A DNA stretch of 64,000 bases, from positions 10,778,501 to 10,842,500 of the forward strand of contig JAPNXP010000001.1 of assembly GCA_028753945.1 (NCBI GenBank), given 5' to 3'. The DNA is from Hexactinellida sp. DTS-2022. Its lineage: Eukaryota; Porifera; Hexactinellida. The notes beneath the pieces were generated by a model that was given only the letters and a program-made list of their open reading frames with translations, had not been told where the DNA came from and did not search any database. The translations under genes and the position numbers were made by a program. This document shows positions 9,515 through 57,093 of this stretch, in pieces. Within the stretch, counting starts at the first letter, position 1; every line of letters begins with the position of its first letter.

Positions 9515-9635
9515 GTATTAAAAAGTACACTGGACATGTCCATTAGGTACACTGGACATGTCCATTAATTTAAGTACACTGGACATGTACATTATGTACA
9601 CTGGACCTGGACATGTCCGTTAGGTAGACAGTCGA
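9515..9635 (+). repeat. Left subterminal array of the KDZ element
   Basis: Four imperfect copies of TACACTGGACATGTCCATTA with short spacers; the fourth has a CTGGAC duplication. Each unit contains the self-complementary GGACATGTCC, suggesting repeated protein-binding sites, as at other transposon ends with subterminal transposase sites. Confidence 0.85.
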
Positions 9636-10029
9636 CCCCCCAATCTCAAGGCAAAGCATCATTCAATAGTCACATGTTTTAATTTGATTCGCGTAAAGTA
9701 TTTAAATAAATGAAAAATTTCTGTATTTCTATTCATAAGTATTATTTGACATCGATACAAATCAAAATGGCTGAAAAACTCTCTACCTCAACATTTGATA
9801 TTAACCACCCGAGAAAACGAAGACTAGATGAGGAGAAATTTGACGTTACTCCAGCAACCCTTTATATCGAAAGAATTGATATTTCTAAATCCACAAATAT
9901 GACTACAATATCTGAACAGCAATTTGCAATTGCATTTAGTAAGTTTCATATACATACGAGTGTTGATTTTATTGTAGGTCAAAATGTTATATGAACATAC
10001 GACCCAGTATGAAACTGGTTGCTCTGCTT

Positions 10030-10084
10030 CCAATTTCAGGGACTCATCAAGAGGGTTACCCCCCTGATGAGTCCATGAAATTGG
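10030..10084. repeat. 20-bp-arm hairpin in the first part of the transposase gene
   Basis: Arms 10030-10049 and 10065-10084 pair over 20 bp with one mismatch around a 15-nt loop that itself holds GGGTTACCC. It lies in an apparent intron. The arm contains CTGATGA, but the rest of a hammerhead core is missing. Confidence 0.75.
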
Positions 10085-12711
10085 TTGGCTTACCATTTTT
10101 CAAGAAATAATTATCTAAGTTGATTAATACAAGTCTACTTGGCCCAATCAACTGGGTCGAGTTAACAAGCTCGATTTTCGGGTTTAATTAATTCATAATT
10201 GAGGACTAATTCTAATTCTAATTTGAAAAATAAAATGAGGAATTTATTATAACTGTTCAATGTCATTTTGAATGTTATTTCTTTCCAGGCAAAACATGTA
10301 CGTATATATAATTATTTAAATAATTCAAGTAAGAAATACTACTTAACTTTTAATTTTAGGAGAACATAAAGAAGAAGAAAGTACTGAGATATGTTCACAA
10401 GGAGAGCTGATATTAAATATTCCAATACTAGACCAATATGTACATATTCTATCCGACAAACAGAAGGCCTGGCGTTTGCAGAATTCCTCAGTCATATTTA
10501 TGTCAGATTTTGATGCCACTAATGGTAATATAAGTAAATAAGTTCACTGAATTTCTGTGATTTGTTTAATAACTTTATTTTCCTATGTTAGGTGAAGTAT
10601 TGTTAACGAAGAAGAGGGTTTTGATTGAAACAAGTTTGGAGATATTTTATCTTGTCACCTAAATTCATGCTTACATTATCAAGCATATAACATGTGTTTA
10701 GAGTTCCAAAGTTTGGCTTTAGCAGAATCCAAATTACACGCAGACAGTACCTATTTTACAATAGATGCTAATATAATCTTTCTCATTAGGAATGGATATC
10801 ACTGCTTTTATATGAAAGAAAGGAAGTGGTATTGCGATAACTGTAGCGGAATGTGCAAGCAAAAGTCAACTTTACAGAAGATTCTTTCTGAATACATAGA
10901 TCAAATACCTATAGCCCCGAAGGTTCTTGACTATTCAACAATATCTACTCGAGAAATTCCATTTAAACTAAGTAAGAACTTAGCAAATATTTATAATGAA
11001 CAGCTTACACAAGGAATCATGCTACCCATAAATCTCAAATCGGATATTTCTTTTTGCGAGCAAGGCCATATTTTTAATATTGTGAGAAAAATTTAGTTGC
11101 AGCAAAGAAGGGAATCATTTTTTACACAGAAAATGATATACGTGACTTAAAAGAACATACAGGTATGTATAATTTATGTTGTTTTTACCTTTCCGATATT
11201 CAGACTTAATTTGTCATATATTTAGTACTACAACCTGCTAAGGAAAGTGTAATTGCAAAGTTGTGGTGATGATTATAATATTTATTACTCAATGTTAACA
11301 ATCGGTACTTTATCCATTACGGAGTCCTATACGAATACAGCAAATGTATGACTATGTCAAGGAATACACTTCATGGATACATGAGGTATGTATTTTCATA
11401 AAGTCTATGTACGTAATTTAAAGGTTAAATATCATCTTCCTATAATTTTAGAGCAAAGAATAATAAATTCCGCAGGATGGGCAGAGAACTCAGCTTTAGT
11501 TACCACATTTTGCAACACGGATGGAATGGATATTTACGAATGTTAGATATTTAACTACACAAACAGTTTTATTTGCCCCAGGTGTAGAGATGCTCCGGAA
11601 ATATTGGTTTTAGATGGAATCACAATGGAAACAATCAAAAAACTTCCTGATTCACAACAAGAATATGATGAGAATCAGAGGTACCCATTAGTCCCTATGT
11701 CAAAAAGATTATTCTAAAAAACAGAAAAAATGTCTAAAAAACAGAAAAAATGTCAGAGAATATTGTGCAAATGGATTGTTAGAAGGCGCATTTCATGCCA
11801 TGATAAGTTCTCTAGAGTTCAAAGAATTTACCGATTATTTAATCTTTCTAATAGTGTTAGAGAAGAGATTTATGCAGTTAACTATAGTTATCCCAACGCC
11901 AAAGTTGTCATCGAACTCTGTCCCGATCCGAGTCGATTACTGGCCTATTTCCTATTTCAATTCTCGACGATGAAGAAATGAAAGCTATTGTCCACCTTTC
12001 TGATGGAACACCAATTAATCAAGGAATACTGTTCGAGATTTGCGGCAAAATTTACACTTTCAAGTTACTCATTAATTCGTTTTCTGAAGTAAATGAACAA
12101 CTGAATACGGCGTTGACTCTTAATACTCTTCTAGCTGGTTTGCTAAAGTCAATTCTGTTCAAAATTGAGGCACTCAATACTCATAGAGATAGAAGGAAAT
12201 TAGTTGAGGCAGCATCATCTAATAATTTTATTCAATAGTTTCCAGGAATAGCAAGACGTTACAGGCATCTTACTATATGTTAATGTGTACAAGTATGAAC
12301 TCATGTTAAATGATTTATCCAATAGATTACCTATTTATGAAGACTAGAATGAAGAAAAATGTATTAAAAGATGTACAAAAGTATATCCAAAACACCAAAG
12401 GCTATCACCGGGACTGTTAGTTCTAGTTTGTAAGCACAAAGTATGCTACGGATTTGAAATTCTTCGTTCTAAAGAGTCCACAACAACAGTATTCAATCTA
12501 TTGCTGACGTTATTTCAAACCCCCCATGTATAATTATATACGACAATGCGTCTAATTTACATAATACATGCATTACGGTATCAGGTTAGAACCTAGATCA
12601 AAATAATAGGTTCCCTCACAGGTGAGAAAACTATCTCTGAAACATTTAGGCATAAGTTATGCTATTTTTTTCAGTTGGATGTCCAATTGTATTAAAATTA
12701 ATATATTTTAT

Positions 12712-13374
12712 GAATGAATGAATGGATGAAACTTTATTTTATGAGGGATACCTGATAAGCAATATTATTATTATTGCTTATCTAACTCAGGATAAATAAA
12801 ACATATACATACAGAAATAATTATACAGTACATAGTAAGTGCAGAATAAGGTAACATTACTTGAAGATGATACAACGTTGTAATTGTCATGATTAGACTA
12901 ATAGTGATTTGCTTATGTACCATCTAATAGACCAATTTAAATTTCTTAAAACTGTCTGTATATTTTATTTCGTCACTCAGTTTATTATAGTACTCAGCGC
13001 CTCTGTAAAAGATACTTTTCCGACATATTTCTAGTGTTAGGTTTGGAATGATGTTCTCTTTGAATTTGTCTGGTTGTTCTTATATTGCAGCTGGATCTTA
13101 GACAGAATAAATGGGTTATGTTGTCCGGAAGTAAATTATTTATAGCTTTATAAATAAAACCACACAATAGATAATCGATTCTATCTGGAAAGGGAAGGAT
13201 CTTCAGTTGTTGAAATAATGGAAGTGATCTTGCTCGAGTAGGTTTATTGAGTATCATTCGTATAGCTCTTTTTTGTAATCGATACAGTTTTATTTTAGCA
13301 GTAGAACTAGTTAGTACGTACATTTTGCTTTCCCCTGATGGTACGTATTTACCAAGTTTTACTGTATGAATCAA
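12712..13374 (-). mobile_element. 5'-truncated LINE (CR1/L2/Jockey-like) 3' fragment in a KDZ intron
   Basis: A 126-codon minus-strand frame (12994-13374) contains KLYRLQKRAIRMILNKP and IDYLLCGFIYKAINNLLPD, the conserved stretch after the reverse transcriptase core in many non-LTR retrotransposons. Downstream on the minus strand lies non-coding DNA ending in a (TTCA)n-like tail at 12712-12732, as in L2/CR1-type elements. The fragment lies between exon-like coding ending near 12570 and coding resuming near 13380. Its own 5' part is absent, typical of truncated reverse transcription. Confidence 0.75.
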
Positions 13375-13703
13375 TTGTTATTTTAGAGATCCTCAACTTT
13401 TCAAAGATACTACATTCCTGGTTGACCGCTTTCACTGGAAGAATCATTACTGCAACCCATCTTATTCTTTGAAATCTGTCAAAAGTGAAGATTTCAAGAG
13501 AATTAATTCTCAAGTTTGCGAGCAGTTATTCTCTACGCTCAGAAGAATATCTACTCAAGTATCTTTCATGCGGATTGAAAACGTATTTTACAATGTCCGG
13601 TATTTTTTGTATTGTTTGAATAAACAAGAATTAGAAAATTTTTAATAAATTGAATTTAGTTCACTAAATCATTAAATATATTATATATAACTTGATCACA
13701 TGT

Positions 13704-14886
13704 TTACTCTTTCATCTTTGTAATTTGGCATTTTCTGCATTTAAACGAGAGTACCTTTTGACTAGTATCCTTGAGTCCAATACATGGTTTGTGAAACCAT
13801 ATATGACAGCTTGGACACATGACCATGTTTTTGTAAGCGAATTCGGGTAACCGACACAGACACCATAACTTGATGGTATAAACGTGTTTTGTACTACTCA
13901 CATTTGAAGCCAGACTTAGCCAGTCTATTTGAAAGCGTAGGTAAGGGTGATATCTTTTCCAAATTGATAAAACTCTGGAGCTGTTTTCTCATATTTGCTT
14001 GGCGCCATCTCATTTGGTCAGGTTCTAAATCATTCCCCAATGCGATGCAAACAGTGATCGCAAACACTCCGTAATCCGATACACTTCTTTGTTGTTGTAG
14101 GGGTTCCACAGTTAATTTTAAATCTCCAGATTCTCTACGGTAGAGAAGTGCAAGCTGGATGTCTAGTTGTTCGCTAGTGTGCTTGGTGATACATCGAATC
14201 GTAAACAGATGCATCTCCTTTATCATCAATCCTTGAGCACACCCAGTGTAATCCACCATCATCATGACATGATGGATTTGAAAACTTGTTAGTGGTGCTT
14301 TGATGAACTGGCGAATCTATAAAATTAAATGAAGTATCATTCCTAATTATATTAGTATAAGTACATTCAAAAAGCGATAATTACCTCTGATAACAGTGAT
14401 AAGAGAGTATCCTGAAGTCCGAGAATGTGTGGGTAATTGTTTTTCATTAGAACCTAAAATACGAAATAGAAATTCCATTATTGCTATTTAAAATAACATT
14501 ATATTAATTAAACTCACCCCAAAAGCATTGATAGTTACATCACTAAGGAAAGTATTGGGATTTGAGAGTTCTCTAAGACATTCTTTCCTCACTTTTTCAT
14601 CTAAAATTGTTATAAATTTTACATTTAAAGGGCTTAACGGAATTGCTCCAGATAGTTTTATAATTGAAGCTGGTGAAGTATCCGAAAAAGGGATAATTAA
14701 GGCTGGGGAGCGTGGGTGATCGAGTTGCATTCCAGATAAGACAATGGGAGTATAAGGAATTGAATTGAAATTAAGATCAAAGGAATTAGGTCCGGGAGAA
14801 TTATTTTGAGATTGTTGCTGGCAGGAAATCACTGAAGGAATAGCAGTTGGATTTGTAAAAATTTCATCGTTAATTTCAGTTTCCAA
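13704..14886 (-). CDS. Ulp1-like cysteine-protease-fold protein with C-terminal PHD finger, active site apparently lost
   Basis: Start at ATG 14886 (METEINDEIF). Proposed exons: 14886-14519, 14453-14395, 14316-13902, each with GT/AG ends, then PHD-coding sequence down to 13704. Exon 1 ends FLSDVTINAFG; exon 2 reads VLMKNNYPHILGLQDTLLSLL, matching the entry of Ulp1/C48-like proteases linked to KDZ elements. In exon 3 the expected His-Trp region reads IHHVMMMVDYTGC, and the site normally Asp-Cys-Gly reads SDYGVFAI (Cys to Tyr), so catalysis is unlikely. The C-terminus is a C4HC3 PHD finger: CLCRLPEF, MVMCPSCHIWFHKPC, FKCRKCQ. A 33-nt gap with GTGAGT at its start separates exon 3 from the PHD frame; it is either a mini-intron or a frameshift. 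The gene converges on the KDZ transposase. Confidence 0.68.
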
Positions 14887-15208
14887 CGGATCTTTATTTG
14901 TTTTTAAATGAATAGGTGACCTGCCTCTAAAACTCTCAGTTAAAGCTCTCTCACAAAGTTATGGGTATAGATATTCTCGTATTGATTGGACTACAATGAG
15001 TAATGTAGATCTGTCCAAATTCTTTGACTTTTTCAGAAAAGGTAGATCTTTAGGCCAAAATATAGGCTGAAATTCGCTGTTCCCCCAAAAATTACGCGGT
15101 TTTCCTACAATAATTTATTAATTCATTTAAGTTAATTCTAATCGAGTATTTTAGAATTACGATTTGACCATTCCAATTGATTTGAAATATTCCATTAGGA
15201 AAATAATT
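14887..15208. other. Upstream region of the Ulp1-like gene, no gene seen
   Basis: AT-rich sequence that would hold the promoter of the minus-strand Ulp1-like/PHD gene. No coding or strong repeat signal is visible. Confidence 0.4.
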
Positions 15209-15536
15209 TATTAAAACACGATTGTTGTTTGTTTGTGTGTTTGTTTGCTTAGATTGTATTAAAGTGATGGGGAATAGAAACCGCATTTATACGTATATGA
15301 GAAAAAAAATTCGAAATGTTATTATAGGTAAACAAGTATGCTGATTTCGAATTTCGCATTTACAAATTTCAAAATGAATATTTACTGATGTTGTTTATCA
15401 AAAATAGGTAAACAAATTATGGAAAATTCAAAATGAACTAGAGACTAACTTCCATTTGTTGGATAAGGTAAACAAGTATGCTGACTACGAATTACTATTT
15501 TTGTCTATTAAAAAAAGCGAGACCGAAAGGCTCGTA
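15209..15536 (+). mobile_element. Non-autonomous Helitron-like unit nested in the KDZ element
   Basis: Begins TTATTAAAACACGATTGTTG, then a GTTT/GT tract and AGATTGTATTAAAGTGATGG, as at 60284 and (inverted) 30180. The body has two or three copies of GGTAAACAAGTATGCTGA. It ends with a reduced hairpin AGCGAGACCGAAAGGCTCGTA. It is about 330 bp long and has no coding capacity. Confidence 0.7.
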
Positions 15537-16207
15537 ATTATATAAATTGCACGATATACTTTGTTGCAACTTTATATGATCATCAACTAATTTAGTTTCA
15601 TGTAATATTGTTGAACAACACAGTTGAATCGTGCATGTTGGAAAAACAGGAAAACTCACTGGGTGCCTTTTGAGTAGCCCACGACAAAATCTTCCTCAAT
15701 ACCGAGACACTGAGTGATTTTAGATCTTGTTTTAGAAGATGCATCATTTCATCTTCTTTATCTATAATGTACGATGAGTCGCCTAGTGTTGTTGATCGCT
15801 CGAAAGTCAAAGTTCTACAAACTATTTCTTTGGTTTCAGAAATATGTTCCCGGAAATAATTGTACCAATTACTGATAATGCACCCTTCCAGGAGTACACT
15901 ACGCCTATGGATTCTCCTGTAACATTTTGGAATCTTTGGATTGCTTCTGATCCCCTTGCATTACCTTGGTTATACGAGGCTTCCGAAAATATTCTGATTG
16001 ACTGAATTTAGAAATTTGTTTTCGATGAATAAGAAGGTTCAAAATTTTAATTTGATTATTAGTCAATAAGCAAGAAATTATTAATATATGAAGTATAGTG
16101 ACACAATATAGGGCTCAGTTTGATCTATTTATAGTCCTAATTAAATATGATAAACAACAAAAAACTTCTCACCATACAGTTTGTAAAGCACAAACATCTT
16201 ATCACTA
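15537..16207 (+). CDS. Inner flank of the KDZ element with a 53-aa ORF of unknown function
   Basis: ATG at 15844 opens a short plus-strand frame ending at 16005 (MFPEIIVPITDNAPF ... FWNLWIASDPLALPWLYEA). Its composition looks more protein-like than its surroundings, but I recognise no family. A 70-codon minus-strand frame at 15598-15810 is equally unassigned. Either may be a remnant exon of an element gene or chance. Confidence 0.2.
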
Positions 16208-16332
16208 TGTACCTAATGGACATGTCCAGTGTACCTTATGAACATGTCCAGTGTACCTAATGGACATGTCCAGTGTACCTAACGGACATATCCAGTGTAC
16301 CTAACGGACATATCCAGTGTACTTTTTAATAC
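16208..16332 (-). repeat. Right subterminal array of the KDZ element
   Basis: Five inverted copies of the left-end unit (ACCTAATGGACATGTCCAGTGT and variants). The outer two carry GGACATATCC instead of the palindromic GGACATGTCC. The array ends CCAGTGTACTTTTTAATAC. Confidence 0.85.
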
Positions 16333-19962: not shown

Positions 19963-20231
19963 AACTACCAATGACTGGGGGACGCGTCATTAGTTCTACT
20001 GCGGAAGTAGGCATTAGTTCTAAATTTCAATTCTAGACGTTAGTTCTATTATTTGCAGCCAGTAGACGTTAGTTCTATTCCCAAAATTGGCGTTAGTTCT
20101 ATTATTTGCAGCATGTAGACGTTAGTTCTACTCGTACTCAGTTGACTGATTTAATGATTATAAATGAAAGAGAAAACAAAGAAAATATGCATTATTAACT
20201 AAGATTAATTAACGAAATGAAGGAGAACGGT

Positions 20232-20552
20232 TTAATTTAGATATATTTGAAACTTTTCAGTGATTGGACTCCTGCAGGTTGGGCACGTCTTAACCGTTTC
20301 AATAATAGTGTCACTACAATGTTTGCAGCAATTTGCATGTTTACATGGTATGAATAACCATGTACTATCTCGTTGAGTAAGACAAATCTCGCACAAACTT
20401 TGATTTTCAGATTGTAGAGCCGGCTCTTCTTCATCGTTTTCATCTGAATTATCTGATACGTAAATCACGCTAGAATCATCTAAAGATATTGCGTTCTTTA
20501 AAGATATGGATATGCAGCCAAGGAATTCCCATGGAGTGCACAAGCCACTCAC
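20232..20552 (-). CDS. RING-finger protein (IAP-type C3HC4) of the MULE
   Basis: 106 codons, or the end of a longer spliced reading frame since it directly follows the transposase. After an acidic stretch (SDNSDENDEEE) comes a C-terminal RING: CEIC, then WLFIPCKHANCCKHC, then TCPTCRSPI. The spacing C-x2-C ... C-x-H-x3-C-x2-C ... C-x2-C matches RINGs of the IAP/XIAP type, which commonly act as ubiquitin E3 ligases. All metal-binding residues are present, unlike the frame-broken transposase upstream. Inferred role: an accessory ubiquitin ligase of the transposon. A degenerate relative occurs at 43560-43790. Confidence 0.75.
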   Translation of the reverse strand: MSGLCTPWEFLGCISISLKNAISLDDSSVIYVSDNSDENDEEEPALQSENQSLCEICLTQRDSTWLFIPCKHANCCKHCSDTIIETVKTCPTCRSPITEKFQIYLN

Positions 20553-20594
20553 AAGTTTCTGTTTGCATTTATTACGCTCAAGGTTGATCCTAAC

Positions 20595-21986
20595 CTACTT
20601 TTTACTTGACCTAGTAATTTCGAATCCATGTTTTAATCGGGATATATCATTGTCATAATCTGCTATCAGGTTATTTAGAGTATTCATAAAGTTCCAAATT
20701 CGTGGATGACTCGATCTGAATAAACATTTTAGTCTTACATGATAGCTTTCTGCTCCATTATTGGTACAATTTTCTAATTCAAAAATCGACAGTTCACGTG
20801 GTGTAATTTGGGTTAGCCAATATCTTTTGAAGTATTTAATAAATTCATCAAGTTTGCACTTCTCAAATTCTGGCAACTTTGGTGGTTGGAGGCAGGAGTA
20901 GGTAGAATAAATTAAGTCATATGGTAGGAATGGAATTGCCATTATTTTCCGCACAGAGACAGATAGTTCTGGTTCATTTTGATAACTTGATGTCAATCCA
21001 AATTTCCGGATATGTTTCCAAATGGCTTGTGTGAATGCAACCAGCTGGTTCTGCTACCTGGATATACATGCTTGAAAGCATTGCGAGATGCTCTTTCCCA
21101 ATCAGACATCATGCTTGTCGGCTAAAGTTGAGGAAGAAGTTCCTTTATTTTTAGTTTAAGTGCAGTATAAAGTTCCTCATCTTTATGTGTCATTAAACAA
21201 TGGATACCTGGGATACTGTGTCTTCCAATTGAAAGAACGATCGTAAACAATTGATAAAATAATCTTGGTACCACATAAAATGTGCCATCAAATTGAATAT
21301 CAGAAATATCTCCCAATACTTCGAATATTGTTTCAGAGAAAAAGATGACTGCTATGCGCTCACCTAACACGACAATTGCCTTTAAATGAATAGCGAAATT
21401 AGTTATTGGTAATTGATCACAAAATTGAATCGCAGTTTTGGGAATTGTAGGTTGTGATCCTCTCCTTGCTCTAAACATCATGAATTCACATTCTTTAAAA
21501 GTAATTCTATGAGCTGAAGGATCATACCTAACTTCATTGAAAACTTCACGAAGGTTAGCTCGAGAAGTGTTTGCCATCTTCCTGCATTTGGATTTTAATG
21601 CAAACTCATCTGATTGATACACTCATATCTCATGATTGTGTTCTGATTTCGGATAGATTAGACTAATATCAGTTTTCAATTTGGCTGCCCTTTGCAACCT
21701 TTTTTTGAAAAGAACACATCTTAAGTGAACACAATTCAATTTCTTTGTATTTGAACCCATCAGGAGTAACAAAAATCTTACCGCCTTTGCGTTGATATTC
21801 TTCAAGGTTATATTCCATATATGGTAATAGTCGTAATGTATTAAAGAAACATACTGTTATACAGGTATATTTATACCATTTGAGTGAACACAAATGTTGT
21901 TTGTGAACACTTTTCACTATTTTTAATTGTCTGGTTATAATTAATTCAAGTGACAAGTTGAATTTTATAAAATTACATAGTGACAC
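20595..21986 (-). pseudogene. MULE transposase with FLYWCH zinc finger, frame-broken
   Basis: From the 5' side: a FLYWCH-like finger split across frames (GGKIFVTPDGFKYKE, then HLRCVLFKKR and PKSEHNHEI); the MULE DDE core at 21622-21122 with DISDIQFDGTFYVVPRLFYQL and GIHCLMTHKDEELYTALK; a segment near 21110-21040 in another frame (MSDWERASRNAFKHVYPG); and the C-terminal part at 20996-20595 with TNNGAESYHVRLKCLF and HPRIWNFMNTLNNL. At least two frameshifts break it. FDGTF carries the first catalytic Asp and MSDWE the second. Confidence 0.83.
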
Positions 21987-22713
21987 TTGTTAACCAGATT
22001 AAAGATAGGGAATCCTTACCCAGCGATCATCGTTTTTAGTGTGCTTCTTCTCGTAAAAACGTTATAGTAGGGTCCTACTATATCGTTTATACTACCGTAT
22101 AAGTACACACTATTGAAATCGTTCTGTCGGACTTCCGTCCGGCCGTACGCGATGGCATCACTAAACCATTAGGGATAGAGATTTTAAATTTAGACTGGGG
22201 TTAGTTGTTTGTAAGGAAATATGTGTTACATATAGTGCATGAATCACTTGGAACATTTACAGTTGATGATGATGTCAATTATATTATTCAAATAGTAATG
22301 TAATAATACACTTATATTTCAATTGTAATAATTATAAATACATAATTAATTAATTTAAGCCGATTCTTATTCAGAATATTTACAATTCAAACATTAATTA
22401 AATTAAATGAAATTAAGATGAAATGAAATTTGAATATTGAATTTAATTTAAGGATGCTTCTGCTGAAAATTTAGGCTCTTTAGTTGCAAAATTGAAAAGC
22501 GAGTTCATACATTGAAATGAAGCTTATATATCATATAATTATTTGAGAAGTGAAAAATCTTTGAAATAAATTCTCCAAAGTCTTCAGAATGCTAATTTAG
22601 TGACGTCATTATTGATGATTCAGCATTATTCAATATCGCAACTGACATTCTTTGATATTCTAGATCATATATCGTGCAATTAAATAATTCTATCATATAA
22701 ACTAATATTAAAA

Positions 22714-22786
22714 TGCACATATATTTCATTGGTTAGTATATATAGCCAACAATCAGTTGATCATGGGTTCGAATCCCTGATTTGCA
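22714..22786 (+). other. Degenerate tRNA-like sequence
   Basis: A canonical B-box GGGTTCGAATCCC (22765-22777) lies downstream of TTGGTTAGTATA, which resembles a D-arm/A-box. The flanking heptamers TGCACAT and ATTTGCA could pair at 6 of 7 positions as an acceptor. The anticodon and T stems are poor, so this is a decayed tRNA pseudogene or tRNA-derived SINE head rather than a working tRNA. Confidence 0.3.
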
Positions 22787-23293
22787 TACTATATTTTCTT
22801 TTCTTATTGCATTATCAACAGATTGATTGACTATATGATATATTTTAAGTCAATTCTAATATATATTTAGTATATACTTACTGTATCCCAACTAGTGTAG
22901 ACATATTATACATATTACAACATTAATCACCACGTTATCCCTATATTATTCCCGGAAAGGATGTCCCAAAAGAAAGCGGACTCAGATAATACTTAGCGAC
23001 TTGTATTGAATTCGATTAATTATAGCTTCTTATATATTTAAATGATTTAGCGAACGGTAGCTTAATATAACCCTCTACCTCAATATAATATTATTGAAGA
23101 GTTTATGCGACCAAAATTGGGTCGTCCTGTTCCACCTGAAGAAGCACACTCCCATCCCGTCTGTAGGTTTTTTTTTGTAATAGAACTAACGTCTACAGCT
23201 GCAAATAATAGAACTAACGCCAATTTTGGGAGAAGAACTAACGTCTACATGAGGATCAGAACTAATGCATGCGCCTCTATAACTACCAATGAC

Positions 23294-32592: not shown

Positions 32593-32595
32593 GGG

Positions 32596-43559: not shown

Positions 43560-43790
43560 TTAATCAGAAAATCTCAAACTCAAGGTCGGTGTGTGAATTA
43601 AGGAACTTCTAAATGATATTTTTTCCAAACTGCTCTGAATTGGTGAATGACAAATAGGACATGTTAATCCAAGTTCTTTAAATTTAATGCGGCAATCTAC
43701 ACCAATTTGCATGTCTACAGGTCTGAAAAGTAATTTCGTTTCTCGTACCTCCAAACATACATACAAATGTGTATTGTAATTTGTAATCAT
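43560..43790 (-). pseudogene. Degenerate RING-finger ORF
   Basis: 76 codons ending LTCPICHSPIQSSLEKI after VCLEVRETKLLFRPVDMQIGVDC. Compared with the intact MULE RING (WLFIPCKHANCCKHC ... TCPTCRSPI), the last Cys pair survives but the central C-x-H is replaced by V-D-M and one Cys is missing. Confidence 0.6.
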
Positions 43791-45003
43791 ATTAATATAA
43801 TTGATATTAATTAATTATTTAGAAGCTTCATTATAAAAAAACAATCAGTAGAAACTAGCCAGGTTTTATAATACAAACGCCGATGATCGCTGTATAAGTA
43901 AATTCATATTATATTTAGACAGGTGCGAAGTCAGCCCTAACTATAGTGGGTGTCAAGTGCGTAGGAGTAAGTATAGCCTAGCGACCCCAATGGGTGGGAG
44001 CTCAGCAGAAAACCTCTTACACACTAAGAGGACTTGTTAAATGTTAATTCAGGAGCACTTTCTATAAAAAAAAGGTGCTATTTAACGACCTAAAAAAATA
44101 GCACAGTAACACATATTGACTGTGAAAACTAACTAATATGATTAAATTCTTGACTGAGCTTAGGACGTAATTGCATCTCTTACGAAAAAGTGCACAAGCC
44201 TTAGTATATTGATTATCTTTCTTTTGGATACAAACAACTTGTGACCTTCAGATGTTCTATATTTTGAACTGCGATTTTATTTATATTGAGTCAAAGTAAA
44301 ATCCATGTTAATTTAAATATCAATTACTAAATAGCATTAATATATTTATTAATACGTATTCTATTATTAGCCAATATATCATGTTTAAATTAAACACAAT
44401 ATCTGAAAAGTAGATATACTATCAACAAATATTGTGTTGAGTGAAAACATAAATAAATTACAACTGTTATTGAATACTCACATTACGATAATTACTAAAC
44501 AGTCGGAGAAATGCCAGCATAAAACATAGAGACAAAGAAGTCGGAAAATTCTAAACATTTGATATTTGGAATTTTGGACAAATGCCGACATACGGAGTCC
44601 GACAAATGCAGGCCCCTAGTTACTGTAGTTTTGATCTCAAATAGAGATGCGTTTTTTATCTCCGAATTACTTTAATGTAATCCGGACAAACACACACACA
44701 CTCACAAAGAACTATTGTGCTTTTAATATATAGATTATTGTGGTCTGCTTAAGCACTGCCGGATTTGGTAGCCCGCGAGACCATTGGCGGGCTAACAATA
44801 GTGCAATCTTGAGGATAAGGTTATCTACCAGTTGTATTTATAATAATTGTTTTGCTATCTCGTAACCCTTCTTATTCAAGAGGTTTTGATCCGGGGTCCC
44901 GGCTGTCTATTAACGGCCACCCAAAATAATACTATGAGGGGCGAAATGATACCTATTTTAATTTGGACATACAGACTAGACTCAATTCACAAGTCTAGAC
45001 TGC
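43791..45003. other. Interior of the long-TIR element, mainly non-coding
   Basis: A Helitron-like 5' terminus lies inverted at about 44640-44730 (TTACTTTAATGTAATCCGGA, CA tract, TGTGCTTTTAATATA). No gene is supported. Confidence 0.5.
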
Positions 45004-46410
45004 GACTGAATTCGGTTAGCCGGGTGACAGCTTAACCGCTGCTAATATTGGTTAACTGTTACAGATTTAATTAAGTAGTTAACCGGTCTGTTAATCTAGT
45101 TAAATAATATCAATGTAATTGCGAATATAAAACACTAAATTATATAAATTTTGTTAGAATATGGTAATCTTAAATCTATGCATTTCCATACATAGTAAAT
45201 TCCTAAGAACCAAGCGTGGGGTTGTTAACCATTCTGAGGCTACAGGTATGATTCGTTTTGTTTATACTACAGTGTAGGACTCAAGTATTATAAAGTATTA
45301 TTTCATAAGTAGTACATTAACTAATACATTTCGCAATTTGGGCAAGTTAGAAACAGTGTAGTTACAGAAAATATATAATGGGTCATTGTAGTGATGAGAA
45401 ATGGATTTATGATCATCATTTTCAACAAAATTCAGATATTTTAATTATTTATACTGTACTTCCTCGCTAATCCCAACAGAGGTGTTCCGATTTAAAAATT
45501 TCTGTTCCGATTAGTGAAGTAATACATTTTCTATTGGCCTCTATTACATGAGATTCCGATAATTTGGATCAAACTTGTCCAAAGCATTTTAATCCAACTA
45601 AACATGTAGTATACTACCTAATTTATTGTCTGAGACTTATTAATTTAGGATTCCATTGTAATATACGTTGGATCTCCTGTTCGGACTAGCGAGGATGTAC
45701 TGTAAGATAATTTCCAAATAATACTGCTAGCTGCTGATTATCAACAGGCCGGCTAACTGGTTAACGAAATATTCAACCGCTAGCCAGCCGGTTAACAAAT
45801 CCAGCCTTGTATAAACTATAGTTAAGGGTGGGGTTGGTTAACCATTTTGAGGCCACGGTTACGATTATCTTCACACTACGGTTAACCGGTTAACCGCCAC
45901 TGAAAGTTATAACAAAATATATAGACATTTCTCAGAAAATATCTAAATTGTAGTAACGAAAAACACATTCTTTTAGCCAAGTACTCTATTAGTACAATAA
46001 ACTGCGGTACAAGTTTATCACTTCAGGTTACTTCTACACTGTGTTGTCACCAAAATATATCTGTGACTATGGGTAATAAGATAAACAATTATTATATTCT
46101 GAACAAAATGCGTGCAAATTCACACTGTTATCCAATAATTTGTACTTCTAATTGTAAATTGTAATATTAACATATCGGTTAACTGATCACTAAAATCCGT
46201 AACAGTTAACCGGTATTAGCGGCGGTTAACCGAATTCAGCCTTGATTTAATATTTTCTGAAGGACGAAATGTAGCAGTAGTAAGGAATAAAAACAAAGCT
46301 GAACCTTACTAATTATGTAGTATAAATAATGTTCTACTGTGGTGATCAGCATGGGCGGTTGACTGGCTAACCGTGGCGAGAAATTGAATCGTAACCGTAG
46401 CCCCAGAATT
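45004..46410. repeat. Cluster of GGTTAACC-palindrome repeats
   Basis: 45004-45090 and 46165-46245 are inverted (TGAATTCGGTTAGCCGGG / CGGCGGTTAACCGAATTCAG, with GGTTAACTGTTAC inside each). Further GGTTAACCGG-rich pieces at 45740-45810, 45835-45900 and 46345-46400 share GGGGTTGGTTAACCATTTTG and GAGGCCACGGTTACGATT phrases. I read this as several nested copies of one palindromic MITE family. Confidence 0.65.
45454..45702. mobile_element. Tc1/mariner-type (pogo-like) MITE, 249 bp
   Basis: Ends CTGTACTTCCTCGCTAATCC and CAGTACATCCTCGCTAGTCC (inward) match at 17 of 20, flanked by TA on both sides (45452-45453, 45703-45704). Internal TTCCGATTA/TTCCGATAA phrases recur. It lies within the GGTTAACC cluster. 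Confidence 0.85.
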
Positions 46411-46504
46411 TACCATTGAATAAAACATTGGGAACAACAAGATACTCTCCCCTGACTTGAGGGTGGGGTCGACACCTCCCTCCTGACGCTATACAGTAAG
46501 TGCA

Positions 46505-46634
46505 TAGGCGTCGTAAATGCAAAGGTCAATCCTTCGGGCAGCCAGGAAACTCCGGGTATAGTATTAGTAGCATAAGGGCAACCCTTCCGGGCCGCCCGGA
46601 CATTTCCGGGCACCCGGGCGAGTAACGACGCCTA
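46505..46634. mobile_element. Small GC-rich inverted-end element
   Basis: TAGGCGTCGT at 46505-46514 is inverted at 46625-46634. The interior has CCGGGCCGCCCGG and CCGGGCACCCGGG. Outer TA may be the duplication; no 8-bp duplication is seen. Confidence 0.5.
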
Positions 46635-47130
46635 TTAGTAACTTAGTAAGTGGCTTAGAAATTAGTATGTATCTCAAATACAAGTGTCACTAAGTGTCTC
46701 TTTAACAACAAACAGCACTTATTTGCAAGTACATATGTAGTTAATTCTAGACTAAATTCGTATTTAGTATACTATGCAATTACTTAAAATAACCGCTAGT
46801 CTCTATGTTAATTTGGAATATTCCTTAATTTTTTTACCTATATTGTAAATAACAACAATAAATAGACATAATAGAAATTTGTGAGTGTCAAATTCGTATT
46901 CAGCATACTTGATTACCTAGTATTAACATTTGGAAGTGAACAAATAGCGGGATTAGATCTGGATATAATCAATTTATAACAACCCATAATATTTAGTTAA
47001 AAATTTTCTATAAGTAATATGACTCCATTTCGCCTGGTACTCAATCTCGCCTAGGCGAGAATGAGTTTCAGGCGAAATTGAGACTCAATCTCGCCTGGTA
47101 CTCAATTTCGCCTGCGACATATATACCCCC

Positions 47131-48708: not shown

Positions 48709-49237
48709 CTAATAATTTAGAATTATACATCTCTGTGGTGTATTAATAAATATAACATATTCTAAAATTTCTAAAACCCTTGCCCGCCAACTCCTCCACC
48801 TCCTCCCTTGCGCTCCCCTCGTCGCCCCCCCCCGCGATCCCCATCCTCGGCCTCCCCCTCGTCGCCCCCCCGCGCTCCTCCGGGTCCTCCCGCGCGCCTC
48901 CGATTCCTTCCGCGCAATGTAGATAGCGAAAGGTCCCCCCCAGGTCCTCCTGCGATGTAGATAGCGAAAGGTCCCCCCCAGGTCTTCCCGCGGTGTAGAT
49001 AGCGAAAGGTTTCCCCCCCCCCAGGTCCTCCCGCGGTGTAGATAGCGAAAGGTTTCCCCCCCCCAGGTCTTCCCGCGGTGTAGATAGCGAAAGGTTTCCC
49101 CCCCCAGGTCTTCCCGCTGTGTAGATAGCGAAAGGTTCCCCCCCCAGGTCTTCCCGCTGTGTAGATAGCGAAAGGTTTCCCCCCCCCCCCCCATCCGAGG
49201 ATGAAGAAAAATCTTCATAATTTGATATAGTATCCAT
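48709..49237 (-). CDS. Minisatellite-encoded Gly-rich ORF (two overlapping frames)
   Basis: The ATG at 49237 gives MDTISNYEDFSSSSDGGGGG followed by NLSLSTQREDLGG repeats; a second frame from about 49218 stays open for 169 codons with FRYLHRGKTWGG repeats. Both are driven by the 7-copy G-rich minisatellite. The non-repeat start, with acidic SSSSDGG, looks protein-like. Position between a hairpin cassette and a Helitron-like body parallels the ORFs at 30929 and 34459. Function unknown; it may not be translated. Confidence 0.3.
48918..49192 (-). repeat. G-tract minisatellite, about 40-bp unit, 7 copies
   Basis: Unit GTGTAGATAGCGAAAGGTT + C6-14 + AGGTCTTCCCGC (plus strand). The C run differs in length from copy to copy (6 to 14). 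The minus strand has seven spaced G runs, able in principle to form G-quadruplexes. Confidence 0.9.
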
Positions 49238-50943: not shown

Positions 50944-51714
50944 TCATTGAGCTACTAAGTTAAACGGATCAAAGTGTTCAGCACCTACATGGTGGTCTAT
51001 GCAATGATACAGTATCCCCAATTTTTGACCATGGTAGATTGGATCACATACTATTGGACTTGTTAGTTGACCATGGATATACACATTGTGTAGTCCCCGG
51101 TTATTGCAATCACTATCGGTTGCAATAATGGAGACGATGTCTATGCCAGCTAAAGCTTCTAACATCCTTAATTCTACGTCAGTACCCCATGCATAAGGAG
51201 CGGAAATGCGTTGTACGTGCTCATGCAATTCCTGCTCAGAGCGCAAACCCGATTTTTCCATAACATTACGGAAGTGTTGTGGACTCGACATGAATCTACG
51301 AATCAGATTCTGCTTTAGCATTTCAAATTTCGATACAATACCTAATATAATATGGGATAATGCTCGATACAAACAATTACCATCGGCAAATACTGGTACT
51401 AAAGAAATATTCATGTGAAATGTATTTGTCAATCTATTTTCCAGTGAACAGTAGTATTGCTTGTAATTATTAATAAGAGGGCGAAGTAATGGTTCTCTAG
51501 TCATTAAAATTGGTTCGACATCTAACCCAATACTACTGGCAATCCTCCTTTGCATAAGGGGAGTCAATTTATTTATGGAACAATTTAGCAAATTAATATC
51601 CATAGTATGTATCGGGCCTGTGATAACACCATCAAACATAAAATCAGGCAAATCAGTACTCATGGGAGACTGAGTCGATTGGGAACCCAGGAATGGACTG
51701 AGGATATTTATCAC
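50944..51714 (-). CDS. OTU-family cysteine protease domain of Helitron H2
   Basis: 256 codons with MSTDLPDFMF at an internal Met near residue 18. Catalytic context PVFADGNCLYRALSH and C-terminal GILYHCIDHHVG as in H3; EQELHEHVQRISAPYAWG and EALAGIDIVSIIATD also shared. Differences from H3 are scattered substitutions, consistent with two related insertions rather than a duplication of this block. It follows the helicase in one direction and is probably the C-terminal part of one polyprotein now separated by frameshifts at 51715-51975 (a Ser/Pro-rich linker with [11 protein letters not shown]). Ubiquitin removal is the family activity; its use in transposition is unknown. Confidence 0.85.
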   Translation of the reverse strand: MINILSPFLGSQSTQSPMSTDLPDFMFDGVITGPIHTMDINLLNCSINKLTPLMQRRIASSIGLDVEPILMTREPLLRPLINNYKQYYCSLENRLTNTFHMNISLVPVFADGNCLYRALSHIILGIVSKFEMLKQNLIRRFMSSPQHFRNVMEKSGLRSEQELHEHVQRISAPYAWGTDVELRMLEALAGIDIVSIIATDSDCNNRGLHNVYIHGQLTSPIVCDPIYHGQKLGILYHCIDHHVGAEHFDPFNLVAQ

Positions 51715-51976
51715 TGAATTCTGTTAGCTTAGGTTTCTTACTGAGTGGCTCAGAATCACCTGGTACAGATACCCTTTTCGCAGGACTAAAGACCGGGTCT
51801 TCGGAATCAGACTGCGAAAGGGGAGAGGATGGAAGAGACACATACATGGTACATGTATCCTGAGTGGAGTGCATGCACTACATTACCCAAATTATTCTGG
51901 AATACCTCACGATATACTACATTCTTAACCAAGGCTCCGCCGGATGAGGAGGGGGTGCCGCCACAAACCATAATTT

Positions 51977-53866
51977 TTAGCCTGCAGGGTTTTGAACTCG
52001 GCTCAATGCAACATATAGTTGGCCATGGCTGAAAATAGCATTCGGAGATGGTAGGAATATGCCCACATTTTCTAAACTCTGTCCTTGCCCTTTGTTAATG
52101 GTAATACAAAAGGCAGGACGAATAGGGAACTGCCTCCTTCTGAGCACAAACGGAAACTCTGTGTCAGATGGAGTCATGGGAATGCGGGGAATAAAAACCC
52201 GTTTACCCTTATGAACACCTGTAGCAATTTCGGCGTCAATAATGCGATTCAGGAATGCTTTTACAGTTAAGCGAGTGCCGTTACACATTCCTTGAGTCGG
52301 GTCAAGACTACGCAATAAAATTATAGAAGCGTGAACCTTAAGGTACAGTCGGTGAGGAGGCAAACCATTTGGTGTAATAGAATTTATGAACTCAGTGGGG
52401 TATATACCTGCCTGCTCCTCACCGACCGAGTCTGCGCTTAATAACGTGCTCGCTTCCCCAGGTATCAGGTCCATAACGTATTGATTTATAAACTCAGTGG
52501 TGTCATTCTTAGGACACATCAAACTACGGCGAGAAATATAATCAGGATTATTATAGTTAACTTTAATATCGCCGTAATTAGCAGCAACCAAATCAGAAAC
52601 TGACTCGCCTGCTACTACAAATTTGTGGTCCACGTGAATCATATGACTCTCATCCTCGGGCTCGGTGCCTTCTCCAACTCTCAGAAGGAATTTGGAGAAG
52701 TCACTAACTTGGGATGCGTCACCTGAAGATAAATTACGGAGTCGCATGTTTATAGAGAGTTTAAGAACCTTAACATGACTCCAGAGAGGCGATCTGTTCA
52801 GACAGGCTGACACAACATCAGCTTCGGTCCCATGTCTGATTACAGGCAGTTTTTGACGGAAATCACCTCCAAACACAATAACTTTGCCACCGAATGGGAT
52901 ATCGCATGAACAGAGATCTCTCAATGTACGGTCGATACACTCTGCAGCATGTCTATGTGTCATAGGAGCCTCGTCCCAAACAAACAGTCTGGTGCGCTGA
53001 ATTAACCTAGCTAAGGCGCTCTGTTTGGAAATACTGCAGACAGAGATTTCATTCAAATGGATATGGACCTTCATCCTAGAGTGAACAGTCCTACCACCCT
53101 GTAGGAGCAGAGCTGCTATACCGGATGAAGCCATGGCTAATGCTATATTACCCTGTGAACGGACCGTGGATAACAGCATGTTATAAAGGAACGTTTTTCC
53201 GGTCCCTCCAGGTCCATCGATAAAGAATGCATTAGAGCACGAATTAGTATCGTTAACAGCTGCAATTATAATGTTATAAATACTCAACTGGTCAGCATTA
53301 AGTAGAGGAAAGTTTTGACTCACTATATCATTCTGTTCACTAACATTATAATCAAGCTCATCCATAATGATACGCGATTCCTCATACGGATTCCTCACAT
53401 TAGTAGGGATCGGCATTCCTGGATAGTCAGTTAAGGACTTTCCATGTTTCTACAGTCGGTACTCAAGATCAAGCAATACACTATTTAAGATATGCTCGTC
53501 GAGTTCTACATTAGCTAATACAGTTCTGGCACGACACAGGAAGTCCTCAGCGAAATAGGGTTTGTACTTATCCCAGAGGGCGAGTGGAATAGATGGCTCA
53601 ACAAACAGGAGAATAGTTACGAATAGCTGACGCAACTGTGCTGGCATAGAACAGGTAGCTGCCTCAGCCAAACACTGATCAGCTTCCTGATCATCCTCCA
53701 GCAGACCTCGTCTCAGACATGCCTCCTTATAGGTGTCACAGACAGTGCCATCAGGGAGAGTACGGACGTCCTGAAAGCTCGTGCTACCTGTGACATGGTT
53801 CAGCAGTATCCTTAGGTAATAACGTGGTCCTTCCCCTGGATGAGCTGAGTACATACGGGCTATCAC
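51977..53866 (-). pseudogene. Helitron H2 PIF1-like helicase, one nonsense codon
   Basis: Superfamily 1 helicase that would unwind DNA during rolling-circle transposition. 53866-53450 reads MIARMYSAHPGEGPR ... TCSMPAQLRQLF; a TAG (same frame) at about 53447 separates it from KHGKSLTDYPGMPIP. Then come Walker A FIDGPGGTGKTFLYN, LAMASSGIAALLL, Walker B RLFVWDEAPMTHR, VIFGGDFRQKLPV, and the last motifs [15 protein letters not shown] and [12 protein letters not shown]. Motifs are intact. A one-base loss at about 51975 shifts the frame before the OTU linker. Confidence 0.88.
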
Positions 53867-53892
53867 TTAACCATGCCCCTTGACTCTGAGTT

Positions 53893-54774
53893 TCATCCAC
53901 GCTTATCTTTGTCCCACACAAACATGTCAGCGAAATTCGTGTGAGTGAGTTCTAGCCCTTCAGGGAATTTCTTATTAGCTTCGAACCATGTAGTTAGTGT
54001 GGTATGCTTCTGTCTGCTCAGAACATCTCCAATGTCCGCGTCCGCAGAAAAGACCACAGACTGCTCATTCTCAAGATGGAGAGCTAGCCTCATCCCGTGA
54101 GGGAAGTTACCATGAAGGTCAAAGGCGAATATACGGTAGCAAGCTTCCGTGGCAGAGACGTATCGACCTTCTACGTAATTAGCGACCTCGTCCTTACGCT
54201 TAGGTACGCTAGTATTCGCAGTTTCGCCTGAACTGAACTCAACAATTTCTCTATCGTGACCCTTGTACACATATTTGAAGAGATACTTAACAGCAGTAAC
54301 TGAGGTACAAATCTCTAAATTAATGTGCGCATTGTACTTCAACAGCAAATAGGGATTGTGTGCGACTACCCACCGATTGTCAAGAAGAGCCTTCCCTACT
54401 CGCACGCTACGGCCATTATCCCTGCAGCGGTAATTAGGGTACCCATCATTAGCAGTACTGGTCACGCAAGAAAATTCTTTCGGGAATCTCTTAGAGCATT
54501 TACCATCACGCATGCAAGCGGCGCTTTTGTTAGACAAACCACATGGACCATGCATCATACAGCGCTCCACAATGCTATGTAGCCTCGGTTTAAGAACTGG
54601 GTCCGGGATCTCAGCACACACTATGTTATCATATGCAGACGGGTCTCGCGGCTTATCCTCATCAGTAAGTATAATTAGAATATGAGCATGGGGTAGGCCC
54701 CGATTTTGGAATTCTATGGTATACACATATGCAAGAGGCTTACCAAAAATGTGTTTTTTGGTAATATCGCTCAA
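53893..54774 (-). pseudogene. Helitron H2 HUH nickase (Rep) domain
   Basis: Cuts and rejoins single strands at Helitron ends. Motifs: IEFQNRGLPHAHILIIL (HUH histidines as H-A-H) near residues 20-36, CMRDGKCSKRFPKEF, RWVVAHNPYLLLKYNAHIN and AVKYLFKYVYKGHDR (the two Tyr of the Y2 motif). It ends at VWDKDKRG; the frame continues toward the helicase through a TAA at the point where H3 has AAA (GHG-stop-VIAR against GHGKVIAR). This domain is intact but separated by nonsense changes from its partners. Confidence 0.88.
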
Positions 54775-55280
54775 TAATTCACGCAGTTAAAGGCGAAAGA
54801 CTCGAACTATTAAATCAGGGCGATCGCTCGCTTTCTGATTTAATAGCAGTGCGGACGTAATCTCCTCCCATTGTGGATTACAGGTAAATGTAATGAATAA
54901 GTCTGGCTACCATATTTCCTGACTATAGCCATAGCGTCCTGATACAGTTCAAACATTTGTCTGGGACTACCTGTGTAAGAGGAGGGGAGTATAATACTGC
55001 GTCCCAGCTCACCGGCGCCCGTGTCGCCTGAGGACAGAGCGTCAGCCAGACCGCTGTAGAGATCACTCCTGATCTGCCTCTGGTTGAACTTTATGTAGTT
55101 CAGTCCCTGCTGCTCTATCTTAGCGTACATATCCACCTGGTACTGATGGAACAGTCTCCCGAACACGTGCAGGTAGCTCAAGCTGCTCCGGACCATCAGT
55201 CTGTAGGAGTAGTACTCCATCGGAGTCACGCAGCCCTTTCCTCTGCTGTGAGGGAATTTTACGCCGCCAGCCATCCACAC

Positions 55281-55343
55281 CTAAGAGAAGCAGTATAAAC
55301 AGTGCACACTAATACATAATGTCAATCAATCAGCAGTACTTAC
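55281..55343 (-). other. 63-bp spliceosomal intron in Helitron H2
   Basis: Minus strand: CCTCGAG, then GTAAGTACTGC ... CTGCTTCTCTTAG, then GTGTGGATGG. Consensus donor and pyrimidine-rich acceptor. The intron joins LLFPRG to VWMAGGVK. H1 reads through the same point (near 28310) without it. Confidence 0.85.
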
Positions 55344-56284
55344 CTCGAGGGAATAGGAGCACATAGTGCAGGGCATCGTAGGCGCGGTGAATCTCGGTGA
55401 TGCTCTGCAAGTCCCCACTCCGCGCGTGCAGGACAATGTCTCTGCTGGCTTCCAGCTCGTTATATCCGTATCCAGGCATGATAACGGCGATCTCAGGCGC
55501 AGTGGGGGCGTTGTACCGACGGGGATCAGAGGCGACGTCAGATCTAATCGTCATCCTCACGTCTGCACCACCGTGCTCTCGCATAACGTCTATTCCATGT
55601 CTGAAGAATGAGACATAGGGGTTGACCTCATGCAGCATAGCCTGTAGACACAGGAGCTCGGGTAGAGCAGCCTCTCCCAGTGCCTGCTGGCGATACTCCG
55701 CTTCAGCCTCAGGGGTACCGTCATGGATGTATATCTGGGCAAATGCCGGGGCCTGTCCCTCTCTCGGCATGAGCTGTCCAATGTAGTGGTGTACAGTCCC
55801 GTGAATACGGAATGTGTACACTCCTTTCTTAGCATTGGCGAGCTGCTTATCCAGGTTAACTCCGAGCGAGGCGAAGGCAAGAGCAGAGTTGTACGCTCGG
55901 ATGTTATCTCTGAAAGCTCTCCCTCTGGTGTCACCCGCTGTCAGCAAGTGAGCAAGCAGGTCAGGCGGCGTAGCTAAAGAGGGAAGAACAACCTTGGCCT
56001 GTCCACAGCAGAGTGGAAACTTGGTAATAATTTGGTGCTAGTGGATAATTTCTCACTTTCCCAGAATTTCGCTTCACAAAAAGTGCAGGAAAAAGTCATA
56101 CTGCCAACTGAAAACTCGGCGCTAAAGTTATCAGTAACTTCACACGCAGATTGTGACCTAGCTAAGTTCAAGGCCGACTTAGAAATGAGGGAATTAGCAT
56201 ACAACTCAACCCTTTCCTGCACACGCTCAGCATGCTGCTCTGCTGTCTCTCCTGCTCTCAGCACGGTAGCATATTCCCTCTGAT

Positions 56285-56510
56285 TATCGAGGCGTGCAGC
56301 AGTTTCCTCTTCAGTCTGAGCCTCTAAATAGGTCGACTGGTATTCCCTCTGCTAATCGAGGCGCGCAGCAGTTTGCTCGTCAGTCTGAGACTCTAAATAG
56401 GCCGACTGGTGTTCCCTCTTCTTATCGAGGCGAGCAGCATTTTCCCCGTCAGTCTGAGCCTCTAAATAGGCCGACTGGTGTTCCCTCTTCGTTAGGAGGC
56501 GAGCAGTACG
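56285..56510 (-). repeat. 69-bp coding tandem repeat in the Helitron Rep N-terminus
   Basis: About 3-4 copies of a 69-bp unit, encoding 23 residues such as REHQSAYLEAQTDGENAARL. Charged, heptad-like composition suggests coiled coil. H1 has similar repeats at 29210-29400. Confidence 0.85.
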
Positions 56511-56679
56511 GTCACTCTCCGACTCTCCATCTCGTTTAGCAGACTGAAGCTGTCTTTGCGTGTCGAGACGGAGTTGGGTCTGCTCTGGAGTCTCGTTAGC
56601 TCGCTCCCAGCGCTTCCGTTCAGCTTCAGTTTTGAACTTCTTCCCCCCCCTGAATCCCTGTCTTCCGTTTAGGAGGCAT

Positions 56680-57093
56680 AATAATAATTAAATCTAATTC
56701 TCAATGTAAAGAAAAAAAAATGTCTGTTCTGAAAAAAAGTAAGTATTTATAGTCAGGCATACTAAAAGAAATACATACAATGATTCGTTAAATGAATATA
56801 TTTTCAATCAATCAGATTGCAGCCTCATAAATCTTTGTATTATGCACAATCTATTTTAAGTTAGCTAATCCATACAAACAAACGTGCAAACGCTCGAATT
56901 TAATTGGCTAACATATTTTGTCACCTTCAAATGTGAATATTTCTCTTCAAAAACCAATAGATCGTTGTCGCAGTACAAAATTACCCCTGTATAAAAATTT
57001 TCAGCTTTCTGGGACTCGTAGTCTTTCCAATCAATTCTGGACAAACACACACACAAACAAACAAACAAACAAACAACAATTCCTCTTTTTATA
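56680..57093 (-). repeat. Helitron H2 5' region, duplicated at 57290-57653
   Basis: Contains CTAATCCATAC, ATTTAATTGGCTAACA, TTTTGTCACCTTCAAATGTG, CAATAGATCGTTGTCGCAGT, GACTCGTAGTCTTTCCAATC and an (ACAA)n tract ending CAATTCCTCTTTTTATA. The same order is present in the adjoining unit. A fragment CAATAGATCGTTGTCGCAG also lies at 50419-50437, just beyond the H2 3' end. Confidence 0.8.

Follow-up and report, generated by a model that had tools for sequence, protein, structure and literature searches.

The DNA considered here is a window of 64,000 nucleotides from the genome of Hexactinellida sp. DTS-2022 (contig JAPNXP010000001.1, positions 10,778,501 to 10,842,500 of the forward strand), in which putative ubiquitin- and SUMO-related domains lie within several transposons. 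The original prediction, made from these letters alone, was that a Mutator-like element (MULE) with a RING, a KDZ element with a Ulp1-like/PHD gene and Helitrons with OTU proteases reflect repeated selection for one shared purpose, interference with the host's ubiquitin/SUMO control of transposition or silencing. Searches of the whole genome (112 Mb, 18 contigs), with 79 loci fetched for comparison (L001–L079), bore out that unrelated transposon lineages carry such domains, in many copies and not in single chance ones; the association is real and general, and the window is its graveyard. The features recognised are given below with their positions in the window (TIR, terminal inverted repeat; ORF, open reading frame).

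8522–8833, minus strand: second, fragmentary KDZ transposase (tblastn 40% identity, 7e-24)
9515–16332: KDZ-type DNA transposon with TIRs of ~22-bp units (inverted arms 9515–9567/16280–16332, 92%)
13370–13645, plus strand: KDZ transposase C-terminal piece (126 genome matches; no Pfam match of its own)
13707–14412, minus strand: broken gene for a Ulp1-like protease and PHD finger, convergent to the transposase (tblastn with L036; PHD 28.3 bits)
20062–23248: MULE, TIR arms 20062–20112/23198–23248 (51 nt), inverted repeat 96% (tblastn with intact relatives)
20235–20594, minus strand: C-terminal extension of the MULE transposase with an IAP-type RING (RING itself ~20256–20402; ends in QIYLN and the stop codon; PF13920 43.3 bits)
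20595–21880, minus strand: MULE transposase, split over frames (tblastn to L009/L013 proteins)
24946–25122, plus strand: Helitron OTU fragment (tblastn 61%, 4e-18; no Pfam match)
31876–32595, minus strand: OTU protease ORF of an internally deleted Helitron (PF02338 35.5 bits)
32905–34077, minus strand: helicase and Rep remnants of that Helitron (tblastn)
42250–47130: TIR element (inverted arms) with a second, gutted MULE-RING relic (RING 43623–43760, N-terminus 44187–44312; tblastn)
43623–43760, minus strand: degenerate MULE RING (tblastn 2e-5; several ligands missing in the ORF)
50947–51723, minus strand: OTU protease ORF of a nearly complete Helitron (PF02338 29.2 bits)
51980–53449, minus strand: PIF1 helicase of the same Helitron (PF05970 254 bits)
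53896–54786, minus strand: Rep portion of this Helitron (PF14214 45.3 bits, matching the C-terminal region of the profile)
55333–56037, minus strand: N-terminal Rep-side ORF of the same Helitron (matches 28363–28992 of the other Helitron; no Pfam match)

All eight zinc ligands of the window's RING are present in C3HC4 order (alignment A1), and its ORF (20235–20594, minus strand) is in frame with the transposase ORF at 20598–21053 of the same strand, a single stop codon lying between them. The intact IAP-type RING predicted at 20232–20552 was thus recovered, by its PF13920 score as by its ligands, and the statement that the MULE carries it could be sharpened, because the RING shares the frame of the transposase and is its fused C-terminus in relatives. 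The element as a whole is broken: its tblastn alignment to an intact relative falls into three pieces and changes frame twice, and its transposase ORF pieces have no Pfam match when taken singly. No exact target site duplication of 7–11 bp was found within 25 bp of the arms; the ends of this decayed copy are uncertain. A degenerate relative had been suspected at 43560–43790, a region with no Pfam match at E<=0.01, and correctly so, as 43623–43760 matches the MULE RING and 44187–44312 its N-terminus. Remnants of the MULE-RING N- and C-terminus are all that was recognised in the surrounding element at 42250–47130.

In the genome-wide searches, every candidate was scored for the KDZ and Ulp1 matches, and the best 150 for the other lists; linkage counts from the latter are lower bounds because only 150 candidates were scored in each. 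The Pfam cut-offs were 27 bits for PF13920, 23.3 for PF02338, 27.6 for PF10551, 20.7 for PF02902 and 32.6 for rve. The MULE sample comprised 32 ORFs of 411–609 amino acids (aa) from other loci, picked for length, with the window's nearest relatives L068 and L069 excluded. Of 20 loci selected for long ORFs, 19 have transposase and RING in a single ORF (L009–L026 and L028, L009 holding two copies), and the remaining one, L027, holds an RNF123-like gene. Both PF10551 (33.9–55 bits) and PF13920 exceeded their cut-offs in all ten MULE ORFs scanned, the N-terminal FLYWCH, where seen, staying under its own. The RING has its full ligands in 25 of the 32 ORFs, has lost one ligand in three and is truncated or lost in four. 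As a converse test, 12 loci, likewise with long ORFs, were fetched from the 67 transposase matches that have no RING listed; six have a full RING, two a RING with one ligand lost, two a truncated one, one has lost it and one ORF ends earlier, and RING sequence is thus present at the end of 8/12 transposases from such loci. A listed transposase lies upstream on the same strand for at least 79 of the best 150 RING matches and on the opposite strand for none; this linkage was compared by strand only, random placement being used for the KDZ–Ulp1 and OTU–carrier linkages. TIRs surround the ORF in six of seven MULE loci tested (in the seventh, L009, two copies form a palindrome), and therefore the RING travels with the element. 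The MULE transposases of this genome are thus predicted FLYWCH-like/DDE/RING proteins with the RING at the extreme C-terminus.

In these proteins RING and transposase are equally conserved. After 10 of the 32 ORFs had been dropped beforehand as near-duplicates or truncated, mean pairwise identity in the remaining 22 was 44% in both transposase and RING but 29% in the linker, and transposase and RING distances agreed (Mantel r 0.78, p 0.0002). The ratio of nonsynonymous to synonymous substitution rates (dN/dS) in four pairs with dS of about 1–2 was 0.06, 0.11, 0.16 and 0.10 for the RING, 0.13, 0.17, 0.13 and 0.11 for the transposase, and 0.64, 0.25, 0.26 and 1.01 for the linker; two of the pairs, L057–L065 and L059–L064, stem from subfamilies that are related, L064 and L065 being near-copies, and the four amount to about three independent comparisons. 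L057, L059, L061, L064 and L065 represent one MULE subfamily with an altered RING (HDxCVHxGFC), in which L059 and L061 have a Tyr at the third ligand despite an open ORF.

A profile of the 19 RINGs of alignment A1, which were chosen among those with all ligands and include no lost-ligand RING, best matched the solved structures of BIRC3 (4.9e-12) and BIRC2 (2.7e-11), and also matched CGRRF1, MGRN1, MUL1, BIRC7, XIAP, MYLIP, MEX3C and MDM2. The RINGs of cIAP1/cIAP2, XIAP, BIRC7 and MDM2 are thus among the best matches, and the BIRC3 and BIRC2 alignments reach the terminal F. The Pfam scans found no BIR, CARD or p53-binding part in the MULE proteins, in which, unlike in the IAP and MDM2 proteins, the partner of the RING is a transposase. 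An F or Y stands within the final three residues of all 25 full-ligand ORFs; the C-terminal tail of IAP and MDM2 RINGs takes part in dimer formation and in activation of the ubiquitin-conjugating enzyme (E2). The MULE RING could instead be a zinc-stabilised knob for dimerisation or DNA binding with no ubiquitin ligase (E3) activity, its likeness to IAPs stemming from dimerisation only. The subfamily with one changed ligand, which keeps long ORFs and a RING dN/dS of 0.10 (L059/L061 vs L064), would fit such a knob, as would the assorted zinc fingers of other MULEs in the available text of PMC6446971. However, CPxCR is invariant in all 19 rows of A1 and all 25 full-ligand ORFs, and the closest structural relatives are E3 RINGs; we consider the knob improbable.

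Fusion of a RING to a DDE transposase has precedents. In the available text of the sources, the RING of RAG1 is an E3 that auto-ubiquitinates at K233 and targets histone H3 (PMC3949197), and in two subgroups of Chapaev the Chapa domain is followed by a RING (PMC4411706). These belong to another transposase superfamily and the RAG1 RING is N-terminal, whereas the family described here consists of MULEs with an IAP-type RING at the extreme C-terminus. It is best read, by analogy and from sequence, as a transposase with a built-in E3 that would work like the RING of RAG1, and not as a member of the RAG1 family. Among MULEs, a RING or C3HC4 ring finger is mentioned for the aphid Ghost elements and for 37_Pi of Phytophthora (PMC6446971). 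The most complete Ghost element differs in its description, as its RING has a 420-bp ORF to itself and TIRs were not found; the word ubiquitin is absent from the main text of that paper, and its available passages give the RING no enzymatic reading.

The KDZ element of the window was so named because all seven PF18758 matches in the genome coincide with matches of its C-terminal query. The window copy itself has no PF18758 match, and no target site duplication of 7–11 bp was found around it; its ends are uncertain. The Ulp1/PHD gene predicted at 13704–14886 was matched at 13707–14412 (minus strand) with its PHD intact; its Ulp1 part is frameshifted, has no PF02902 match and reads DYG in place of the DCG of its relatives, with Tyr for the catalytic Cys. 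An active KDZ Ulp1 in the window was rejected for this copy on account of the frameshift and the Tyr.

Genome-wide, 118 KDZ loci and 110 Ulp1 loci remained after merging, and 95 of them are paired within 2 kb (0.27 expected at random), all 95 convergent and none divergent. A Ulp1-PHD frame of 192–226 aa was present in 20/20 fetched loci picked for open frames, with the catalytic Cys in 19/20. The catalytic set H21, D37, Q73 and C79 is unchanged across the 16 rows of alignment A2, which was built from 16 of these 20 loci (L041, with Phe, is among those left out). Three of four Ulp1 relatives exceeded 20.7 bits for PF02902 (17.4 in the fourth), and among solved structures the relatives match the Ulp1-like protease 6dg4 (5.4e-6). 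The dN/dS of Ulp1-PHD was 0.10–0.12 in the closer pairs L046–L047, L039–L048, L042–L050 and L040–L042 and 0.12–0.43 in the 12 remaining listed pairs. The PHD is similar to the PHDs of PHF2, PHF8 and BPTF, which read histone H3K4me3. KDZ elements of this genome thus carry a convergent gene for a predicted Ulp1-PHD protein. The domain pair is the same as that of Ginger1-9_HM in the table of Bao et al. 2010 (PMC2836005), here as a convergent gene in KDZ elements; the available text of two KDZ papers (PMC12730594, PMC9297572) contains none of the words protease, SUMO, PHD, Ulp and ubiquitin. A second type of Ulp1 + PHD ORF was seen at L078 (C6:3825400-3827400, 300 aa) and L079 (C9:1230200-1232000, 310 aa), both above the PF02902 cut-off, with the PHD of L079 below its own; neither has a KDZ match within 3 kb, and no carrier was identified within 2 kb.

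Helitrons in general have TC...CTRR ends and a hairpin. The OTU proteases predicted in the window's Helitrons at 31873–32592 and 50944–51714 are indeed present (35.5 and 29.2 bits), with DGNC and the final His box. The one predicted at 24749–26150 was overstated: 24946–25122 (plus strand) matches the Helitron OTU by tblastn and the remainder of the span does not, the ORFs 24749–24961 and 24934–25125 have no Pfam match at E<=0.01, and the fragment lies on the opposite strand to the Rep remnants at 26438–28992 (minus strand). DGNC was found in all eight further Helitron OTU loci, of which L076 stops before the His box and L073 differs there. PIF1 and OTU share one open frame in cases of 1890 aa and 1453 aa, as in the Helitrons and Helentrons with OTU or VTD deubiquitinases described in the available text of PMC9741609, from which the present Helitrons show no fundamental difference and to which they add a further member. 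The dN/dS of the Helitron OTU is 0.21–0.28 between two families and 0.98 between the two window copies, which suggests that the lineage was constrained and that the window copies are decaying.

The equation of OTU with Helitrons was rejected at the genome scale, where a listed PIF1 (best 150 of 295) lies within 4 kb upstream of only 7 of the best 150 of 440 OTU candidates. The same 150 include 62 downstream of Ginger-type integrases (54 of a first one, 8 of a second) and 38 downstream of an unclassified DDE-like transposase, so that at least 107/150 are linked to a carrier, random placement giving 1.4. The first integrase falls under the rve cut-off (L033 29.1 bits, L034 27.3 bits) and the second above it (L005, L008); we read these integrase + OTU elements as Ginger-type, their order of an integrase-like transposase followed by OTU being that of Ginger1 in the available text of PMC2836005. 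The long ORFs of L029–L032 and L007 belong to an abundant family with a C-terminal OTU and DDE-like motifs judged by eye; L029–L032, fetched with wide flanks, have ORFs of 895–1252 aa and no Pfam family other than OTU at E<=0.01, and the family possibly represents an undescribed transposase group. Helitrons, Ginger-type elements and the unclassified DDE-like family thus carry a predicted C-terminal or downstream OTU. At L004 (1057–2277, plus strand) a PHD-like zinc finger, seen by eye, precedes OTU in one 407-aa ORF, for which Pfam reports OTU only. The two best OTU matches, L001 and L002, are unlinked and resemble host genes, with long ORFs in which Pfam shows OTU alone.

Taken together, three superfamilies were an undercount, as about five mobile lineages are involved: MULE-RING, KDZ-Ulp1-PHD, Ginger-type-OTU, Helitron-OTU and the unclassified DDE-like-OTU family. 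The predicted repeated selection to keep the modules is supported by purifying selection between subfamilies for RING, Ulp1-PHD and Helitron OTU; the modules are not confined to single chance copies and do not evolve neutrally in all families, with many copies and low dN/dS between subfamilies. Passive hitch-hiking, in which pieces of host genes are caught by chance and their domains drift, would agree with the broken copies of the window and with a dN/dS around 1 between close Helitron OTU copies. Such a history is already contradicted by that purifying selection, by an architecture and orientation fixed across deep divergence, and by ligands and catalytic residues that are mostly kept; we find it barely credible, and chance or capture was rejected on the fixed orientation and the selection.

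Two features of the window lie outside these elements. A tandem array with units of about 38–43 bp, rich in C runs, occupies 48897–49188, and the long open frame at 1–3156 (plus strand) belongs to an ABC transporter gene that continues past the window start.

We therefore favour, at a probability of roughly 0.6, the reading that the window holds decayed copies of families whose surviving members would keep ubiquitin/SUMO-type enzymes as selected working parts, serving as local controls of the transposition complex. Several observations weigh against it. Every carrier in the window is broken, and most copies there are in decay: the frame of the RING-transposase is interrupted, the Ulp1 has lost its active-site Cys, and close copies drift, the window's two Helitron OTUs standing at a dN/dS of 0.98; L068 and L069, the nearest relatives of the window MULE, are also broken, with short or interrupted ORFs. 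A ligand has been lost in the open MULE ORFs of L017, L059 and L061, and part or all of the RING is gone from those of L058, L060, L066 and L067. Partners are missing at 15/110 Ulp1 loci, one of which (L044) has no KDZ piece alongside in the 1.3 kb examined, and at 23/118 KDZ loci; 43/150 OTU matches are unlinked, including the window's own match and L077, which is a Helitron OTU by sequence. Distant Ulp1-PHD pairs reach a dN/dS of 0.43, and the between-subfamily ratios are rough because a dS of 1–2 is near saturation, with distant pairs saturated and very close pairs holding too few changes to judge.

On the mechanism, the MULE RING would be a dimerising E3 of the IAP/MDM2 class whose C-terminal tail holds the conserved aromatic residue. 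A transposase dimer on the TIRs could bring E2 to the excision complex, where the RING may ubiquitinate the transposase itself or nearby chromatin, and this would limit the half-life of the transposase and clear the complex for repair, as reported for RAG1. In KDZ elements, the PHD may anchor the SUMO protease on histone tails near the element, and OTU could strip ubiquitin from Rep, integrase or repair factors and so prolong their life. The modules would then be local controls of the transposition complex and not one common attack on host silencing. The single purpose put forward in the original prediction is doubtful, given that ubiquitin is added by a RING but taken off by OTU, and that Ulp1 takes off SUMO. 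A weapon against the host, with modules that strip or add ubiquitin or SUMO on silencing factors (Ulp1 undoing SUMO-dependent heterochromatin, OTU blocking the degradation of transposition proteins), would account for the recurrence of the modules in unrelated lineages, and the PHD could bring the Ulp1 protein to chromatin; however, the RING works in the direction opposite to OTU and Ulp1, and its fusion to the transposase suggests that it acts around that protein itself, and we judge such a weapon unlikely.

Part of this picture is prior art. In the available text, Bao et al. 2010 (PMC2836005) tabulated Ginger1 elements with OTU, Ulp1 or Ulp1 + PHD, noted Helitrons with OTU and Mutator elements with Ulp1, and suggested a part for the ubiquitin pathway in transposition. 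That paper and PMC9741609 thus already cover OTU for both Helitrons and Ginger, Ulp1 and PHD for Ginger, and the ubiquitin hypothesis. Neither a one-chain MULE transposase-RING fusion nor a KDZ-Ulp1-PHD pair was found in the open-access literature searched. Within the reach of these searches, three things are new: a MULE family with transposase and RING in one chain, for which constraint was measured, the convergent KDZ-Ulp1-PHD pair, and the coexistence of both with three OTU lineages.

For annotators, many PF13920 RING matches in this genome belong to MULE transposons: among the best 150, a listed MULE transposase lies upstream of 59, and that or an overlap with the MULE RING query applies to 100, and of the other 50, seven proved to be MULE-RING once fetched (L020–L023, L025, L026, L028) and one RNF123-like (L027). 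More broadly, the old suggestion that ubiquitin pathways matter in transposition becomes testable, with E3-like RING transposases, SUMO proteases and deubiquitinases in one genome and many of these elements still with open frames. Tentatively, and at a little under even odds, the large selected MULE family with its IAP-class ligase would have arrived at the design of RAG1 independently and for a second time, as one of about five lineages that separately acquired ubiquitin/SUMO enzymes, and control by tagging would be a general requirement of eukaryote DNA transposition. If RING-dead MULE transposases do fail or overwork, this would explain why RAG1 has a RING and would speak to self-regulation as against the disarming of the host.

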